NCBI GenBank assembly: GCA_033065855.1
Contig: JAVXUO010000922.1
Location: forward strand, 806,001-870,000
From: Escallonia rubra
Lineage: Eukaryota > Streptophyta > Magnoliopsida > Escalloniales > Escalloniaceae
Length of the DNA stretch: 64,000 bases
Reading direction: 5' to 3'
A program made the position numbers and the translations under genes. Shown here piece after piece: positions 1,429 through 31,454 of this stretch; positions within the stretch are counted from its first letter, which is position 1; every line of letters begins with the position of its first letter. Under the pieces are notes generated by a model. That model searched no databases, was not told the DNA's origin, and saw only the letters and a list, made by a program, of their open reading frames with translations.

Positions 1429-1677
1429 GGGTTAATTACAAAACTGTCCCCTGAGGTTTACACGTTTTTGCACTTTGCCCCCCGTGTTTACAATTGTTGC
1501 AATACTGTCTCCCGAGATTGACAAAACCATTACAAACAGCTCCAAAATTGAACGTCCGTTCAATTTTGGACGTTAAATCATCATGTGCGGTGCACATGCC
1601 ATTTTGGCATGGGCAAAATTGTAATTTCCCCTTCCCCATTTTCCCCATTGTGTTCATCTCTCTCTCTCTCTCTGTGT
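1429..1677 (+). repeat. Left TIR of the Pack-MULE
   Basis: About 245 bp that pair with the reverse complement of 2582-2815, with small indels and substitutions. Both arms carry the same ordered words, including CATGTGCGGTGCACATGCC and a GA/CT tract. The inner end is a CT-rich microsatellite (1650-1675). Confidence 0.9.
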
Positions 1678-1705
1678 TCCCCTTCCCCATCTTCTCCTCT
1701 TTGAG

Positions 1706-2095
1706 TGCCAGCCGTAGATACCAGTTGGAACAACGGCCGCTCGACGGAGACATCGGGATCGGCGCCTACAATCACGGCGGCAGCACCATCACCGAAAAGA
1801 GCCTGCCCAACGAGGGAGTCCAGATGGGTGTCAGAGGATCCACGAAAAGTGAAGACAGTGATTTCAGAGCAGACGACGAGGAGGCAAGCACATGCGTTGT
1901 TCTCGGCGAGATCCTTGGCCAGGCGGAGGACGGTGTCACCGGTAAAGCAGCCCTGTTGCTACATCATCAGCCTCTTGACAGAGGGGCGGAGGCCGAGGAG
2001 CTTGGTGAGCTAGTAGTCGGCCCCAAGCATGTCTACGCCGGAGGTGGTGTAGAAGATGAGGTGGGTGATCTTGGACTTGGACTTGGGCTGGCCCC
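1706..2095 (-). pseudogene. Chalcone synthase (type III polyketide synthase) fragment captured by the Pack-MULE
   Basis: On the minus strand this encodes about 130 residues of plant chalcone synthase from the second exon, roughly residues 155-285 of the ~390-aa enzyme. Visible landmarks are [38 protein letters not shown] with the catalytic cysteine (Cys164 equivalent), [20 protein letters not shown] and [17 protein letters not shown]. The active-site His and Asn further downstream are absent. Two in-frame TAG codons interrupt it: one replaces the Gln after GADY, the other the Tyr before QQGCF. In plants the enzyme condenses p-coumaroyl-CoA with malonyl-CoA; this piece cannot. It joins the carboxylesterase piece with no intron and ends almost at the left TIR, so it is a captured fragment. 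Confidence 0.9.
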
Positions 2096-2533
2096 GCGGT
2101 TCAGGTCCTTCCCCATCGAAATGAGCTGCAACCCACTGCAATGAGGCCCAAGAGTCCTCGTAAGGGATTGGCAGCGGGTTCTCCGAAGCGAGCCTGTAGT
2201 CGACGGACACAACTATGACCCGGGCCAGTGAGACGAAAGAGGTTAAAAGTTGAGGGTTACGGCGTTGAAGGGTGATCCGGCATAGAAGGCTCCACCGTGG
2301 TAATGGAGAACTAGAGGGAGCTTCTCTTTTGGGCCGGTGATTCTGGGCATGAAAACTCATGCCTTGATGCTAGGTTTTGACGAGATCACGACGTCCTTTG
2401 CCTCGTCGCCGGTTCCGGGATCGAGGGCTGGTTCAATGTAAGGGCTCTCTGGGTAGCGTTCAACGCGACCATCTTTGTAGACTAGAAAAAATGGTGGGAA
2501 TTCATGGGTTATTTCAGCTGTGATTGAAGCCAT
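2096..2533 (-). pseudogene. CXE carboxylesterase (GID1-like alpha/beta hydrolase) 5' fragment captured by the Pack-MULE
   Basis: Starts at the ATG at 2533 with MASITAEITHEFPPFFLVYK, the N-terminus typical of plant CXE carboxylesterases. It continues through DVVISSKPSIK, the oxyanion-hole motif HYHGGAF and VSVDYRLASENPLPIPYEDS, and ends at QWVAAHFDGEGPEPR, where chalcone synthase sequence begins. The serine nucleophile motif GDSAGG and the C-terminal catalytic residues are absent, so no esterase activity is expected. An in-frame TGA follows codon 58, and a frame change lies between the HGGAF block and the VDYRL block. The ATG lies just inside the right TIR, so the TIR plus captured 5' leader could supply a promoter. 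Only the first ~150 of ~320 residues were captured. Confidence 0.88.
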
Positions 2534-2581
2534 TGCAGAAGTAAATGGAAAGGTGAAGAGGTGAAGGTGCTTCCTGTAGGT

Positions 2582-2815
2582 CTTACAGAGAGAGATGAAC
2601 ACAGTGGGGAAGATGGGGAAGGGGAAATTACAATTTTGGCCATGCCAAAATGGCATGTGCACCGCACATGGCGATTTAACGTCCAAAATTCGTTCAATTT
2701 TGGAGCTGTTTGCAATGGTTTTGTCAACCTCGGGAGACTATTGCAAAAGTTGTAAACACGGGGGGACAAAGTGCAAAAACGTGTAAACCTCAAGGGACAG
2801 TTTTGTAATTAACCC
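2582..2815 (-). repeat. Right TIR of the Pack-MULE
   Basis: Inverted copy of 1429-1677, ending exactly at the 9-bp target duplication (2816-2824). The carboxylesterase ATG lies about 50 bp inside this arm. Confidence 0.9.
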
Positions 2816-2866: not shown

Positions 2867-3690
2867 GCAAATACCTTAGCTATGAGGAAATGGAAAGAAG
2901 AAATAACTGGACTAGCTATGCCTCATGTGCATACTAAGGATAAAATATGGTGGAATCTGCAAAGGAATGAGAAATTCACCATTAACTCTGCCTGGGAGGA
3001 GCTCAGATACTCTGCTAATATAGCTCCCTGGTGGAAGCTATTATGGTTCCCTGGCCATATACCTAGATGTGCTCTAATTTTATGGATGCTATGTAAAGGG
3101 GGTTTGAGAACTAGGGATAAATTGAAAGCCTGGAACTACACCACAGAAGATGGATGCTCTATGTGCAATGTTGAAAAGGAAACAGGAAGCCACTTATTTG
3201 TGCAATGCAATTTTGCTAAGAACCTGTGGCACATGGTATTTCAGAAGCTGCTAAATAGATTACCATTGATGAATTGGCAACAACTACTAAACCAGGCTTC
3301 ATGTATGTTCAGAGGGAAAAGCTTCTCCACTAGGCTAAGGAAACTGGCGTTGGCAGTCACAGTTTATACCATTTGGAATGAGAGAAACTTGAGAATATTC
3401 AAGCAAGAGCAAAAGCCAGAGGAAGTATGCTTCCGGAAAATCCAGCAGATGATTAAACATAGGGTGCTAAGCTAGAAGAAATCTCCTGCCAACAGCTTAA
3501 ACAAGCAGCTATGTCATGCATGGGGACTCCCTGAATACATCCTAACAGCTTAATAGATAAGTAGATGAATTTTTTCAATATACCTTGTAATCATGCTACA
3601 GTAAATAGCCAAGACTAAGATGTATACTCTTGTACAGTGATTTGAGCTTTCATGGAATAAAATGACATTTTACCCAAAAAAAAAAAAAAA
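2867..3690 (+). mobile_element. 5'-truncated L1-type LINE (3' end with zf-RVT domain)
   Basis: The open frame from 2867 to 3475 (about 200 residues) encodes the C-terminal end of a plant L1 ORF2. It holds the zinc-binding reverse-transcriptase region (zf-RVT type) with KIWWNLQRNEKFTINSAWE, CALILWMLCKGGLRTRDKL and the metal-binding pattern C-x2-C...H-x4-C (CSMCNVEKETGSHLFVQC). It ends at the LINE stop, followed by a ~200-bp 3' UTR and a 15-A tail (3676-3690). Target duplication GCTACTTG flanks it (2859-2866 and 3691-3698). RT and endonuclease are missing through 5' truncation. The frame is open to its natural stop, so the insertion is probably not old. It inserted 51 bp right of the Pack-MULE. 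Confidence 0.92.
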
Positions 3691-3698
3691 GCTACTTG

Positions 3699-4513
3699 CA
3701 TTATATATCGTTTCTGCCTTACTCCACATATTGCAGTGAATTGAGCCATCGGTTACAAGAGGGGTCATGGAGTTTATGTTAACTTACAGTGGCATGATCT
3801 TGAGACCAGCAATCGTTCCGTTAATTCCTTTCCTGTATTAGCTTCAGTATATGATCCAAATTCTTACAGCCCTTGAAGGTCTAGTTTTTACTCTTTTGCT
3901 TGCAGTTGGCTCCTATGCTTGTTTTTCATTCTTCCGCTATCCTTTTCATTGACTGTATACTATTTCGTTTTGCATCAAAATTATAAACGTTGAGAACATC
4001 ACCTAAGAGCTCATTTGTTACTGCCACACTCCGTGGCATTGGTTTGGTGATATGGTGAGCTCTGTTCATCTCTTCTGTAGACTGTAATGAGCAACCAAAA
4101 GCTGAATACTTGTGAGATTGGTGGTATACAAATATAACAGACCCCAATTTTGATAGTAGTGTGATCAAGACTACTCAGCTTTATATGGTTCTCTTTTCCT
4201 GCAGATCATCAGTCAACTTGCATCAATGGGGGGGACATGGAAAGGGACCTGAGCTTGGATAGAATACAAATTTTGGACACTGCAGGGAATAAACAGTTCG
4301 CCCAACAAAACAGCACCAGTTCTTTTATTTGTTTGCTTATGTACAGCCTGGGATCCAAATCCGTACAGCCTAGACCCCAATCTCTGTAAAAGAAATTGTT
4401 TGAATCGCCATCAGTAATGCAAGGAAAAGTGGAGGAAATTTCAACGACAAAAGCCATATTCTCAAGCTATGTACATATATTGAGGAAAAGAAAATTGAGA
4501 AACTGAGTGTATA
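3699..4513. other. Spacer and 3' flank of the NPH3-family gene
   Basis: No gene seen. The part next to 4514 should be the 3' UTR of the minus-strand NPH3-family gene. Short open frames here show no family resemblance. Confidence 0.5.
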
Positions 4514-7500
4514 TCATGAACATAGCCTGGGTAAGGATCTAGCATTACTATGACTTGATAATCTTGATCTCATCATCTTAGTCATCTGAGTTTGCATTTT
4601 TCTACAAACTTTCTCCAATTCAATCACCCTCCCATGCATACTTTGCAAATGCACTTTGAGCTTCTCATTCTCAGCAGAAAGATCAAGTTTTCCCGCATAA
4701 AGCACAATCTGATCATGGCTTTCATCTTTCTTGCCATTACTTTCAGTATCGACAAAACTACATGGAGAGGCTGGTTGATTGGTATCTTGGAGCAAGCTTT
4801 TTAGCCTGCATTGCTGAGAGATGAGGGCTTGGGCAGCAGATTTTGATGGAAATTTGTTGTTCTGAGCAAGGTGGTTCCAAGCTTCTGACGACAGCTTCTC
4901 ATAATTCAGCGCACAGCAGACTTTCATCCTCTCGTCTTCGCTTAATCCCGCATGGACCTGCAACAAAAATGATATTTAGACCTACTATACCTACAACAAT
5001 CAAGGCAAAGAAAATGAAAATCAGTTCAAGTGCATTGTTGCAATCTCTAATCGTCAGGTATAGCCAGGTTTGGCCCTCATAATTGGATGAGCTCAATTGT
5101 TTCTTTTTATAGTGCTTTCTTGAAGCCCACCATCCTCAACGAAGCAAAATAGAGAACTGCTCTTTCAATAAGGTCATCTGATGCATCTCTTCTAATGACA
5201 AAGGGCACCATTTAAGAAAATGAATTCCAAATGTAATGGAAAACGAAAAAACCAATTCAAGATGTGGGACAAAAAAAGACTATTGTGATAAAGAATCGCA
5301 AATATTCCTAGTTTGTGAGATCAAGACCATGTTTCACATTAAAGGCTACAACCAAACTGTGGAGGATGCAATAAAATACCTCTAGATACATGTCTATGGC
5401 ATGATAGATTCCATCATATGAGTCCCTTGCAGAATCTGGTAGAGCCCTAACTAGAGCCAGGAACTTTGAAGGTTTCAGAGAAGGATCCGGGGCTACTTCT
5501 GCAATATACATATTCATCAAACTAGCAACTTTCTTCAACCGCATCAAAGGCATGCTGCTTGTTCCTTCGATAAACGATTTTATAAACCTCAGAACCAGAT
5601 TCACATCATATAGATAATTAGTCCCAATTGGAGATGGAACCAGCAGATTGTCTAAACTTGCTTGATCCAACTGTGAACCAACCATACTCTCTAACTTGTT
5701 CCTGCCGTATTTGCTTATGTTTAGGTTCAGGACAACACGAAGAATCACAAATAAGCTCTTGCAAGAAACAGCACTCTGATCTAGAGAATAAAGCAGCTCA
5801 ACAACCGTCTCAGTTATTTCGCGCTTCTCATTTGAAGTGGCAGTAACAAACTTGGACTTCTGGTAATAAAACAAGAACTTACTAATTATGCCATTGTCAA
5901 ATTTCCTTGATACCAATGATTTTATTGCCATTCCAATCAAATGAGGTCTCAAAGCCACAAGATCATCGAACCACCACGTTGCTCGAGAGAAACTTTTCAA
6001 GCTTTCAGTACTTCGAGTGTCGGTAGACACCCGAAATCCAGAGCTATCCGGGGAGGAAGTAGACGGACATGGACTTGTCTCACAGGCCAATGCAAGCCTT
6101 CCGACGAGGGAATCCAAGCATTTATTAAGAACTCCTGAAGAACTAGCAATAGGGAGTAAATTCTGACAATCCTTTAGAGCAACTAAAAGCTCGGACCAAG
6201 TCCAATACCGGATTTCTTCAAGTGATTTCTCGGCTTGCTCAAATAGATTGTGCGTTTTACACATAGATTTGTCCATTTCCATGTAATATGCTATACAATG
6301 TAAGAGAGAGATGTTAAAGGGATTTATCTCGATTTTCCCGTTATTGTAGCAGAACCTTGTCATGAGCTCGAAACTCCCCACACCTCCGGGGAAGTCATGG
6401 AATATCACCTTTAGGTTCCTCGTTCGACCTTTTGATTTGGCAAATAATTTGCTTATTCTGCCACAATAGGAAGATAAAATTTTCTGCAAACATTCACGAT
6501 AAAACGAGTCAAACTACAAACAGAAGTCGCGATAATATTATAAGAGGGTGGAGAAGGAAACGCAGCTGGTTTGCAACTTCTGTTATACTCCGGTGGTGGT
6601 CAGCCGGTAAAAGCATGCTATGGCATTGAAATAATGTCCAGTACAAAGCATGCCCAAGAAAAGAATAAGTCCACCAGGTATGTCAAGGGAGACCAGTTCC
6701 CTTGAGGGACAGTAATACGATTTCCACAACAATAGAAACCTTGATTAAGTCATTTTCTACAAATATATACATAATAAAATGCTCCTCTAGTGGCAAAATC
6801 ACTAGGAGATCCAAATCTCCTGAGGGCGAGGGGAACCGGCTAGACAACAGTGTGTTCTACAAAACAAGTAACTGAAAGCGAAAAAGTTCAAAATCAATAT
6901 TGCTTCACTCAAAGAGTATGAAAAAGATACGGAAAACCAATTCATGTGGGAAAATAAGTAAAATCGACCTATGGACAGCCACTAGGAACCTGCATTGCAA
7001 AAGAACCAGCAAAGGCATTGAATGTAGTCGACAAAAAAAGGGGATTAATGGAAAATCTGAACGAATTCAGCAAAAGATTGGTGAGAGAGGTCGTTATAGG
7101 TAATAAAGATGTCTACAGAAGTTCCCAGCAAAAAAGGGAAGGAACAGTACTAAACCTTTGAAAAGGAGAGTAGGGAGCAAGTAAAGGTATGGAACATTTA
7201 TAGCCCCATCTTAAACTCCAATAAATGCCATGAGAAGCAACAAAAGAGTGCTCAACCATTGAAGTTAAGCATGTGATATTATGGAACCAATTAGCCAAGT
7301 TACAGGAATTGAATTCATGCCACAGAAAAATAGGTGCATACCAAAATGATGGGTAGAACAAAACATATATTAGAACATAAAATTCTGGAAAAAGAACAAA
7401 AAATACCAAACCGGACTAGGGTCTGGTTGAAAGTTTGAGGAAATGTGGTAGAAGAAAGCCTTGAAGCTTGATGATTTTGTAATTCAGGTTTCCAGAAATG

Positions 7501-18291: not shown

Positions 18292-19608
18292 TCAAGCCTC
18301 AAATCCACATGGAACCCAAGCTGTGGCATAAACTGAGTTATGGCCTTTCCATGTTAGCACCAACATATCATCCTCATTCTTCATTCCCCATCCACTTGCA
18401 TGTTCGTCTAATAAGAACTTAACTTCCCTAACAGTCTCTTCACAAAATGGAACGCTGAGAAACCCCGTGTTTTTCATGCGCTGTGATAAGTTAAGCCCTG
18501 ACTCTAATCTCTCTATCCTCTGATTACCTTCAAATCCGATAATATTTTCGATTTTCTGACCAATATCAGCTTCATATTCCAACCTTTGGCAACTGTCTTT
18601 GGGCAAGAAAGTTTCCAGGGCATCAAATGGAATCCACAGAAAATTGAAGCACGTAGTAATTCTTGATGTGAGACTTGATGCCCCCAAATCTGAATCCTCG
18701 TCAACAACCGTAATAATACGAGGGTTAAGGCCTTGTATTACATCCAGGAAAGCATCACGTGAAGAAGTATTATGAATACTATTGCCCTTTTGCTCATCAG
18801 GCAGATATCGTAGCCAATTTTGGCAATTAACTACCAATATCTCATCTTCCCTAAGTTGTAACGACGAGGGACTCAATTGACTCAAGACAAAATTATCACA
18901 GTGAACGTTTGAATGTTCTTTAGAAGGTGAATCTTCAATGACATTGAATTCAAAAGGAACTTCCCTAAATTTGGCGAAATTTGACAAACGTTGGCCAACT
19001 TCTTGACATGATAAATCAAGAAAAGGGGGGACCAGTGGCCTCCACGAAGGCACAGAGATCCTAAGCGAAGGAGGCCCTTCAGGCCTCTTGGCCAATGCGT
19101 CAATCAGAGTAGGCCATTGCATACAATGAGTTATGCTAAGATCTAATATATGAACTTTAAAGTAGCCTTGGATTGCATTGTTAATGGCGCTATTCGATGC
19201 ACAAAATCCAAACCTGTGCCAAGGGAGGAGATCCACATAGCCAGCAAGCTCAGTCACACTCATCAACCTCCTTCGAATGGTGCCACTAGAGCTTCCACCA
19301 AAAGAGTTCATAGGTGTAGGGAAAACCCTAGACGAGCGAGCAATAAGTGCCCTCAAGAACCATGAGGTGAGCCTTTGGTTAGGGTCCCCGGCAGACGAAG
19401 CCACGTTGTTGAGCACCCACATCACTTGTTGAGCCAAAGTGACGTCGTTGCTCTCTAGAGCACTCGCACAGTGAAGTAGAAGCTTCTCTATGCAAGCTCC
19501 ATCGAGGCTGCCAAGACATCCCTTTAATAGAGAAGTTTGAGGGGTGGTACAGAGACTAGGGTTTTGTGGAGACATAGATGTAGTGTTGCCTCTCAGCTCG
19601 GTTTTCAT
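18292..19608 (-). CDS. SCL32: GRAS-family transcription factor, SCARECROW-like 32
   Basis: Single-exon gene of 438 aa from ATG 19608, the usual length for SCL32 proteins, which belong to the SHORT-ROOT branch of the GRAS family. Visible motifs in order: N-terminal RGNTTSMSPQNPSL; leucine repeat I from about residue 40 (CIEKLLLHCASALESNDVT, VMWVLNNVASSAGDPNQRL); VHILDLSITHCMQWPTLIDA at 152, the VHIID-type block; PPSLRISVP; a second leucine-rich and PFYRE-like part (LNPRIITVVDEDSDL, LWIPFDALETFLP); and the C-terminal SAW block (GWGMKNEDDMLVLTWKGH, ATAWVPC). GRAS proteins act in the nucleus as transcriptional co-regulators; the specific role here is not shown by the sequence. No internal stops, start context matches family N-termini, frame intact. 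Confidence 0.95.
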   Translation of the reverse strand: MKTELRGNTTSMSPQNPSLCTTPQTSLLKGCLGSLDGACIEKLLLHCASALESNDVTLAQQVMWVLNNVASSAGDPNQRLTSWFLRALIARSSRVFPTPMNSFGGSSSGTIRRRLMSVTELAGYVDLLPWHRFGFCASNSAINNAIQGYFKVHILDLSITHCMQWPTLIDALAKRPEGPPSLRISVPSWRPLVPPFLDLSCQEVGQRLSNFAKFREVPFEFNVIEDSPSKEHSNVHCDNFVLSQLSPSSLQLREDEILVVNCQNWLRYLPDEQKGNSIHNTSSRDAFLDVIQGLNPRIITVVDEDSDLGASSLTSRITTCFNFLWIPFDALETFLPKDSCQRLEYEADIGQKIENIIGFEGNQRIERLESGLNLSQRMKNTGFLSVPFCEETVREVKFLLDEHASGWGMKNEDDMLVLTWKGHNSVYATAWVPCGFEA

Positions 19609-28882: not shown

Positions 28883-31454
28883 ATGTCAGTGGATAGAAGT
28901 TGGGTGCAACGAAGGATTGCTCCAAGTGGGATTGGTGTATCGGAAGAGTTTCAACAGGGAGTGAACGGAATTATTCTCTTCGCTTTGAATCAACGAGACT
29001 TTATGGATGACGGCATGATTAAATTTTCGTGCAATGATTGTCAGTTGTTAAGTTGGAAAACCCCTGACAATGTAACTTATGATCCCTTCCGTAGAGGTTT
29101 TATGAGTAACTATACGAATTGGACTCAGCACAGGGAACCAATTCTGAGGGTGCCGGCTGAGGTGCCCACTGAGGTCAAACAATATAGTCATGAAGATCCA
29201 GGATTTTCTCAATATCAACTTATGGTAATGGAAGTTGGGCCTAGTAAGATTAACTCGAATAACTTTTTTAATGATGGTAATCCTTATGTGGAAGAAGAGC
29301 CAAACCCGAGTGCACAGAAGTTTTATAAATTTTTAAAAGACTCTGAAGAGATAATATGGAAACAAAGTACAAAGCACACCAAGTTATCTGCTGTAACAAG
29401 GATGCTACACTTAAAGTCTGAATATGGCCTAAATGATAGAGGTTTTGATGCTTTTCTGAAGCTTAATAAAGAAATATTGCCAGAAGATGAAAAGTTGTCT
29501 GACACGTACTATAGTGCTAAGAACATGATGATGAAACTCGATTTGGGATATGAGAAGATAGATGTCTGTAATAATGATTGTGTCTTTTTTTGGAAGGAGA
29601 ACAATAACTTGAATGATTGTCCGGTTTGTGGCACGCAAGGTATAAACCAACCTGTAAGAAGAAAAGGAAGATAGCATGAAAGATATTACGATACATTCCA
29701 CTGACACCAAGGCTTCAAAGGTTGTATTACTCTTCTAAAATAGCTGAATACATGAGATGGCATAGCAACGTCCGCAGCAAAGCTCCCGGTTTATTGAGAC
29801 ACCCTGCCGATTTCGAGGCATTGAAGGAATTTGATTGCAGACACCCATCTTTTGATGCAGAGGTTCGAAATGTGCGACTTGGCCTCGCTATTGATGATTT
29901 TAATCCTTTTGGGCACTCTAGCAAACCTTACTATACGTGGCATGTGATCGTTGTCCCGTATAACCTTCCTCCAGATATGTGCATGAAGAAACAATTCATG
30001 TTTTTATCATTACTCGTTCCTAGACCTACGAGTCCGGGTAAAAATATAGACGTGTACTTGCAGCCATTGATCGATGAGTTAAGAATTCTGTGGAAAGTTG
30101 GAGCCCCAACATTTAATGCATCTCTAAAACGTAACTTTAGCTTGAGGGAAGCAGTCATGTGGACTATCAATGAATTCCCTGCATACAGTATGTTGTGTGG
30201 ATAGAGTACACATGGTAGTTTGGCATGTCCATATTGTATGGAAGTGAGTAAGGCTTTCACCTTAAAGCACGGGGGAAGGCTTCATTTTGGGGGTGTCACA
30301 GACAATTCTTACCGCCTAATCATCCATTTCGAAAACAAAAAGATAAGTTTGATAAAATTGTGGAGCGTCACGTTGAAACACGTGACAGATTGTCTAGGGA
30401 TGAAGTGTATATGTGCTTAAAGGACCTTGACATGGATGTGGTACCATTTGGAAAATGTACTGATAGTCTAAAACTTCCTAGCTTTGAAAAAACACACAAC
30501 TAGAAGAAAATGTGCATCTTTTGGGAGCTGTCTTATTGGCCGACCCTCCTTCTCCGCAACAATCTTGATGTTCTGCACATTGAGAAAAATGTTTTTGAAA
30601 ATGGTTTAATACAGTCATGAATATCAAGGACAAATCAAAAGATCACTTAAAAGCACGCAGATATATGCAGATGATGGGTATACGGCGTGAATTGCATCCA
30701 TGAATGGTTAATGGTAAGATGGTGTTGGCCAAAGCAATATATACATTGGATAAAAAGTAGATACAACCGGTGTGCGAGTGGGTTAAACTCTTGAAGCTGC
30801 CAGATAGCTATGCATCTAATATATCACGTTGTTGCAACCTTGCTGATTGTAAGTTTTATGGTTTAAAGAGTCACGATTGTCATGTATTCATGGAAAGATT
30901 TATATCAATTGTCTTTCGTGACCTCTTGTCGAAGCCAGTAAATGAAGCATTGACTGAACTTAGCCATTTCTTCCGTGATTTATGCTCAAAGGTACTCCAA
31001 GAGAATGATGTTAAGATTCTTGAAAAAAACCAAATTTTTAGGCAATGTGCAAGCTAGAGAAAATCTTTCCCCCGTCATTCTTTGATTCGATGGAGCATTT
31101 GACCATTCACTTATCATATGAGGCTAGAGTGCGCGGACCTCTGCAGTATCAATGGATGTATCCATTGAGAGGTGATGTCGCTCATCCATCTTTAAACTGT
31201 ATTTCATACTGTTCCCAACATATTCTGGTCGTACCCAAAGGCCCACTGGGGTCCCATTTTTCATGACTCATCCGCACAAGCAACAGTCATTTTAAACGCT
31301 CACAACTGGTCAAAGCATGCACGCTCAAGTCACGTGCACTTCTCACTTTCGTTATGTTACTTCGTCACTAAGAAGCTCATTTTCGTGCAAAGCCTCATGA
31401 CACTTTGACCGTCGCACTTCGCAAGTCGCCCATCGGCGCACCATGGCACTTGCC

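Follow-up and report, generated by a model that had tools for sequence, protein, structure and literature searches.

A Pack-MULE with carboxylesterase and chalcone synthase fragments in Escallonia rubra and the order of gene captures suggested by its family

In a stretch of the Escallonia rubra genome, the 5' part of a carboxylesterase (CXE) gene runs directly into a fragment of a chalcone synthase (CHS) gene. This raises the question of whether such a fusion is a chimeric gene, a source of small RNAs directed against its parents or the cargo of a transposable element, and of how the two pieces were brought together. The fusion lies at positions 1429-2815 of the 64,000 nucleotides of contig JAVXUO010000922.1 that were analysed here, referred to below as the window. 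A first reading, made from the letters without database searches (the sequence-only reading), had taken it for a Pack-MULE that fused a CXE 5' end to a CHS fragment.

The element in the window

The element (1429-2815, minus strand) is 1387 bp long and is bounded by long terminal inverted repeats (TIRs), one of 237 bp on the CHS side (1429-1665, plus strand) and one of 229 bp on the CXE side (2587-2815, minus strand), which are 91.6% identical to each other. Perfect copies of a 9-bp target-site duplication, TTTAGGTTT, flank it on the left at 1420-1428 and on the right at 2816-2824 (no strand assigned); in a control within the window, an exact 9-mer was found at 2 of 20,000 random boundary pairs. 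The long TIRs and the perfect duplication described in the sequence-only reading were thus borne out. All 1387 bp could be assigned to the TIRs, CXE and CHS, and no transposase family was matched when the minus-strand pieces and a 216-aa plus-strand frame of the element were searched. No empty allele of the insertion was seen with either flank as query: the right flank (3695-4500) matched only itself, the single candidate, and about the first 100 bases of the left flank alone recur, as a dispersed repeat (best 40 of 636 candidates).

Between the TIRs, the minus strand carries the captured CXE piece (2094-2585), with the leader, an ATG at 2533 and about the first 440 bp of coding sequence, followed by a piece of CHS exon 2 that includes the catalytic-Cys region (1711-2095). 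The two meet at about 2094/2095 (2093-2097, minus strand), where the donor sequences overlap by 4 bp (GTGG). A remnant at 1691-1707 (minus strand) corresponds to the far end of the original 806-bp CHS capture and was left by an internal deletion of about 220 bp. Translation runs from the ATG through MASITAEITHEF...HYHGGAF to a TGA (2359-2357, minus strand, donor codon 61), passes a frame change, with a 1-bp deletion relative to the donor placed approximately at 2246-2250 (minus strand), and enters CHS, where the QQGCF stretch and two TAG codons are found. When the frames were re-read in this way, the course proposed earlier, from the CXE start through the HGG motif into the catalytic-Cys region of CHS, was recovered, and so were the lesions, one TGA, one frame change and two TAG.

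The piece that follows the frame change matches the Pfam family Abhydrolase_3 (E 6.4e-11) and also, below the Pfam cut-off, Chal_sti_synt_N (E 1.6e-5). For the CHS piece, Chal_sti_synt_N was matched with E 6.4e-33 and chalcone synthases of the PDB with a best E of 3.4e-39. The two N-terminal CXE pieces had no Pfam match when searched alone; they were identified as CXE because the donor gene on C1870 is 90.4% identical to them in DNA over the captured stretch. Protein similarity to both CXE and CHS, the lack of which had been named beforehand as a sign against the fusion, was therefore present.

A family of insertions and its donor genes

The sequence-only reading had proposed a genome search for the two parent genes and for other copies of the element. 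We searched 566 Mb in 3222 contigs and scored the best 40 of 1437 candidates for the whole element, the best 40 of 67 for the CHS piece and all 29 for the CXE piece, which gave both donors and at least 16 distinct CXE-CHS insertions. Among the loci examined, CXE and CHS were found together at full or near-full length in at least 17 (L033-L048 and L052); L047 and L048 were counted once because they have the same target duplication, in reverse complement. The CXE/CHS join is spanned by 19 of the examined loci, namely these 17 and two broken ones, L049, which is split into two pieces 3.8 kb apart, and L063, which is truncated. Sixteen of the 19 are full-length elements, and only one TIR end is present in L044 and L063. 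Two further loci, L050 and L051, lack CHS and one end.

No CXE/CHS join was found outside a TIR-bounded element, either in the 19 spanning loci or with all 29 CXE-piece candidates scored; a join at a non-transposon locus, the find that was to speak against a Pack-MULE, was thus not made among the 19 loci. It is hardly credible that the join itself arose by mis-assembly or that the resemblance is due to chance. Haplotype duplicates do seem to be present in the assembly (L047/L048 and L064/L066, judged by target duplications in reverse complement), which is all that could be brought forward for such a view, as nothing favours it for the join; against it, the same join recurs in 19 loci and the full-length ones that were tested have different target duplications.

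Of these full-length chimeras, 16 loci entered the duplication test, which leaves out L044, whose far end is missing. The target duplications were perfect over 9-11 bp in 12 (11 of the 15 distinct insertions), that of L038 being a run of T, and the remaining four had 1-2 mismatches. In the control, with shifts of up to 3 bases allowed, a perfect repeat of at least 9 bp was obtained at 1 of 5000 random pairs. Sixteen other elements, which comprise CHS-only elements, elements with an F-box fragment and L069, behaved similarly: perfect duplications of 8-10 bp were present in 13, and 7 of 9 bases matched in three. The chimeras (16 copies, compared in pairs) diverge by 3.1% at the closest, with a median of 6.7%. 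The 36-bp TIR end, with up to 3 mismatches, was found genome-wide at 537 forward and 528 reverse sites, compared with zero for the reversed control, and the TIR family therefore has hundreds of members.

We also performed a transposase search for an autonomous partner, in which the best 150 of 3309 candidate places were scored. Two loci with long open transposase frames, L084 and L085, have ends without these TIRs; in L084 only a 31-bp resemblance to the TIR, at 81%, was seen at both ends of a 1.2-kb stretch. The copies would have been moved by a MULE transposase supplied from elsewhere.

Five features expected of a Pack-MULE are found in the window element and its family: long TIRs, a target duplication in the range of 9-11 bp, fragments derived from donor genes, no transposase of its own, and mobility, seen from the 16 distinct insertions, for 15 of which target duplications were read. 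It is clear that 1429-2815 is one copy of a non-autonomous Pack-MULE family with gene fragments as passengers. As an element it is of an ordinary kind; the family is an unusually full record of stepwise gene capture.

The CHS donor was located at C2913:727307-728519 (locus L054), where exon 1 is present and exon 2 is open over 343 aa from stop to stop. CHS-only elements match this gene at 89-94% and the chimeras at 78-92%; the CHS genes of the C1477/C1127/C1128 array match the CHS piece of the window at only 74-77%. Judging from the splice-site letters, the captured piece begins just before exon 2 and includes the last bases of the intron, so the capture would have been made from DNA. As the CXE donor we identified a gene of a tandem cluster on C1870 (locus L073); the two closest members of the cluster are open over 321 and 320 aa from stop to stop and match the window copy at 90.4% and 87.5%. 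Donor identities by themselves do not order the captures, because CXE matches overall lie at 85-91% and the true CXE donor may be another paralogue. For the F-box fragment the donor lies on C1918 (open frame of 445 aa from stop to stop, 94-95% identity), and a second place on C1918 reaches 96% over a shorter stretch. With donors found for both of its parts, the proposal of a Pack-MULE in which a CXE 5' end is joined to a CHS fragment is supported.

Other sequences of this kind were noticed in the course of the searches. L069 (501-1713) has the same TIRs and, in its interior, an open frame of 158 aa from its Met without a Pfam match, which is perhaps a further captured gene. A genome-wide search with PF00195 returned short CHS fragments at C1004:286543-286790 and C1389:1380903-1381070, which are probably further Pack-MULEs because a TIR end lies about 1 kb away in each case. 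About a dozen similar short CHS fragments were returned on other contigs.

Probable order and possible mechanism of the captures

The forms of the element differ in how much of the CHS donor they hold. The CHS-only elements L053, L056 (to 1742), L060 and L061 cover donor positions 940-1745, L070 holds the same span in two pieces and L055 holds 985-1745. The chimeras L047/L048 cover 1121-1745, and the other chimeras about 1121-1501, with the extreme CHS end kept as a remnant; L046 shows further losses. In L064-L066 (on C464, C2328 and C2048), 719-734 bp of an F-box gene replace the CXE-CHS middle, while the TIRs, CXE 575-651, the CHS deletion junction and CHS 1364-1501 (to 1473 in L064) are kept. 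These three loci represent two distinct insertions, L064 and L066 sharing a target duplication in reverse complement, and their F-box piece scores under the Pfam cut-offs (F-box-like, E 7.7e-4).

In the CHS tree the chimeras form one clade (support 89), L047/L048 fall outside the rest (77) and the main radiation is supported at 100; the CHS-only elements L053/L055 are sister to the chimeras with a support of 62 only. In the TIR tree the F-box elements group with the early chimera L042 (68), and the chimeras were not recovered as one clade. In the same tree the divergent B-type CHS elements sit next to the chimera L038 (71), on a long branch. The B-type elements, at eight loci (L057, L058, L059, L062, L071, L072, L075 and L076), hold a fragment of the same CHS gene that lies within the span of the A-type piece, and the seven of them in the TIR tree (all but L058) belong to a clearly divergent TIR subfamily. 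Their position contradicts a simple order of captures, unless it reflects a long-branch effect; the B-type CHS piece may be a separate capture or the result of an exchange between elements. Since tree support is limited, the order of captures rests mainly on the nested breakpoints.

These forms suggest that the gene pieces were picked up one after another. The fusion described in the sequence-only reading is real as a CXE-CHS chimera, but not one made in a single step, as the forms point to CHS first and CXE second. From structure and trees we infer the order CHS, CXE, deletion, F-box. An ancestral MULE would have taken up 806 bp of the CHS gene on C2913 (the end of intron 1 and part of exon 2). 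The first 181 bp of this CHS piece would then have given way to 498 bp from the 5' portion of one of the CXE genes clustered on C1870. Next, about 220 bp would have been lost from within CHS, and the deleted form would have spread; in one branch, the fragment of the F-box gene on C1918 would later have replaced the middle. Taken as a whole, a Pack-MULE family with these stepwise captures, made by copying and carried as neutral passengers, is the best explanation of the data, and we put its probability at about 0.8.

Such layered captures are relevant to the question, still open, of how DNA is taken up by Pack-MULEs. Besides the 4 bp shared by the donors at the CXE/CHS join, the donors overlap by 5 bp at the CXE/F-box join; in a random-join control, overlaps of at least 3 bp arose in 5.7% and of at least 5 bp in 0.46%. 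At the F-box/CHS join the picture is less clear (perhaps a 2-bp overlap and a small change), and the joins to the TIRs gave no clean reading. No resemblance to the TIRs (E up to 0.01) was detected around the donors, in 2.5 kb for CHS, 17.5 kb for the CXE cluster and 1.9 kb for F-box, which covered flanks of 0.9 and 0.8 kb, at least 3 kb, and 0.5 and 0.7 kb, respectively.

Each capture may have consisted of copying inside an existing element, a break or gap being repaired with switches of template at short microhomology. We infer copying, with less certainty than the order, because the outer ends of the older element stay in place, its size remains at about 1.2-1.7 kb, and the donors are open and without element ends in the sequence examined. 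The lineage would then swap its cargo at near-constant size, a fragment of an unlinked gene replacing the interior through microhomology-guided template switching and the donor being left intact. This general picture is tentative, and we would give it slightly less than an even chance.

New DNA inside an element with its ends kept would also be expected if neighbouring insertions in a donor gene lost their facing ends and moved as one element, together with the gene DNA between them. In the available text of PMC8903248 and of the review PMC13317346, this model is published for Pack-TYPE elements, and it explains the F-box step no less well than copying. However, the three donors keep open frames, no TIR lies in the sequence examined around them, and the inserted allele would have to have been lost each time; on balance, we regard such fusions as rather unlikely here. 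In the part available to us, a 2021 study of animal elements (PMC8277862) names the applicability of gap filling or FoSTeST to plant Pack-MULEs as a question worth exploring, and a 2026 review (PMC13317346, likewise in part) allows that an undiscovered capture mechanism may exist. If the exchange of cargo by copying is the true course, the surviving donors and intermediates in one genome can decide between copying and the fusion of neighbouring insertions. The competing models of capture are testable in this lineage, which offers three forms (CHS-only, CXE-CHS and F-box), donors that are still open and joins that can be read in part.

Our comparison with known Pack-MULEs also draws on what Jiang et al. 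reportedly described in 2004 and 2011, and Hanada in 2009. As far as the available text of PMC3310237 and PMC4858842 goes, the Pack-MULEs of rice, maize, tomato and Arabidopsis resemble the present family in their long TIRs, 9-bp duplication and lack of a transposase, and in carrying gene fragments with donors elsewhere in the genome, several per element and in many copies. Unlike the Pack-MULEs compared, this family has three separate donors that can be traced through intermediates in one lineage. The maize cluster Zm-Pack-PIF #18, a step-wise Pack-TYPE case in the accessible part of PMC8903248, likewise consists of related elements with one fragment and a second in a subgroup. There, however, fragments were added (on average 402 to 535 bp, then 58 more), whereas here fragments replace old ones, the total size stays at about 1.2-1.7 kb, and long TIRs of the MULE kind are present. 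Animal Pack-TIRs, for which gap-filling or FoSTeST models are given in the part of PMC8277862 available, share multiple copies, captured DNA and breakpoint microhomology, although those are animal elements and this family is from a plant. In the titles and abstract beginnings of the open-licence literature, no published CXE-CHS Pack-MULE was found.

Coding potential, small RNAs and surroundings of the element

The 1-bp deletion in the CXE frame is present in all 16 distinct chimeras, at donor base 291 in 15 and aligned at 288 in one, and the TGA at CXE codon 61 is present in 12 of the 16, including the early form L047. The CXE reading is thus dead at or near the origin of the family. Private changes in the 16 copies comprised 35 non-synonymous and 20 synonymous ones in CXE before the deletion (39.7 non-synonymous expected; omega about 0.67, P 0.09), 26 and 10 in CXE after the deletion (24.1 expected) and 68 and 34 in the CHS part (63.3 expected; omega about 1.2), where 6 private stops were found compared with 2.2 expected. 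In 14 CHS-only elements the counts were 145 and 67 (142.4 expected; omega 1.06). Judged by private substitutions, purifying selection was not seen on the CHS part or in the 14 CHS-only elements. Weak selection on the CXE start is possible, its omega of about 0.67 being not significant but not 1.

The window element is very probably no gene for a chimeric protein, because its CXE frame was already broken when the family arose or soon after, and the CHS part gave no sign of purifying selection; in the sequence-only reading a protein had already been thought less likely than an RNA role, and for the protein the family agrees with this. Some copies could be supposed to make a functional CXE-CHS protein all the same, as the later CXE part and CHS stand in one frame and the longest open frames reach, from stop to stop, 322 aa in C855 and 268-269 aa in C510 and C1977. 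Nevertheless, the common deletion and the TGA cut off the CXE start, and the captured CHS has no exon 1 and presumably also lacks the catalytic His and Asn. Moreover, the private changes appear neutral, and neither TAG of the window copy occurs in any of the 15 other chimeras. Such a protein is therefore extremely improbable, and this candidate was rejected on the lesions common to the copies and the neutral pattern of private changes.

Private transitions amounted to 0.015-0.022 per site at C/G compared with 0.003-0.004 at A/T, in all C contexts; private transversions were also commoner at C/G (0.007-0.012 per site, compared with 0.002-0.003 at A/T). It seems that the chimera has not been kept as a protein, its private changes being neutral-looking and mostly C-to-T and G-to-A, as in silenced transposons. 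The decay of methylated DNA is a likely cause of the excess of C/G transitions, although methylation is only one reading of the bias, because transversions too are commoner at C/G.

Exact 21-mers shared with the donors were counted as well. For the window copy, 47 were found in the CHS donor region on C2913, 40 in one CXE gene and 29 in another; a third CXE gene and exon 2 of each of two other CHS genes contained none. Taken together, the 17 chimeras have 192 in common with the C2913 region, 146 and 80 with the two CXE genes, and 3 with one and 0 with the other of the two further CHS genes; for the CHS-only and F-box elements, the numbers are 539 for the CHS donor region and 6 and 3 for the two other CHS genes. 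Small RNAs against the donors would therefore be possible in principle. A general effect of the element on chalcone synthase appears unlikely from these counts, and an effect on flavonoid synthesis as a whole is unlikely too, since no 21-mer of the window copy lies in exon 2 of the other two CHS genes. The element probably does not matter for the flavonoid pathway itself.

The narrower proposal, that the element is a putative source of small RNAs which would lower the expression of the donor genes CHS C2913 and CXE C1870, could appeal to the 21-mers common to element and donors and to the excess of C/G transitions, which fits methylated, silenced DNA. We nevertheless consider it improbable, given that the two other CHS exons 2 and the third CXE gene have no 21-mer of the window copy, that the donors remain open and that nothing shows selection for lowered donor expression.

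Several features lie near the Pack-MULE or elsewhere in the window. The 3' end of a LINE, with a zf-RVT domain and a poly-A tail, occupies 2867-3686 and is flanked by the duplication AAAAGCTACTTG at 2855-2866 and 3687-3698; its start lies 42 bp past the right target duplication of the Pack-MULE. At 1-925 there is a direct duplication, positions 1-300 and 626-925 being 95% identical with a spacing of 625. Pfam matches were also obtained for open frames of the NPH3 family at 5308-6489 (minus strand) and the GRAS family at 18292-19608 (minus strand), and for one with a Transpos_assoc domain at 28883-29674 (plus strand).
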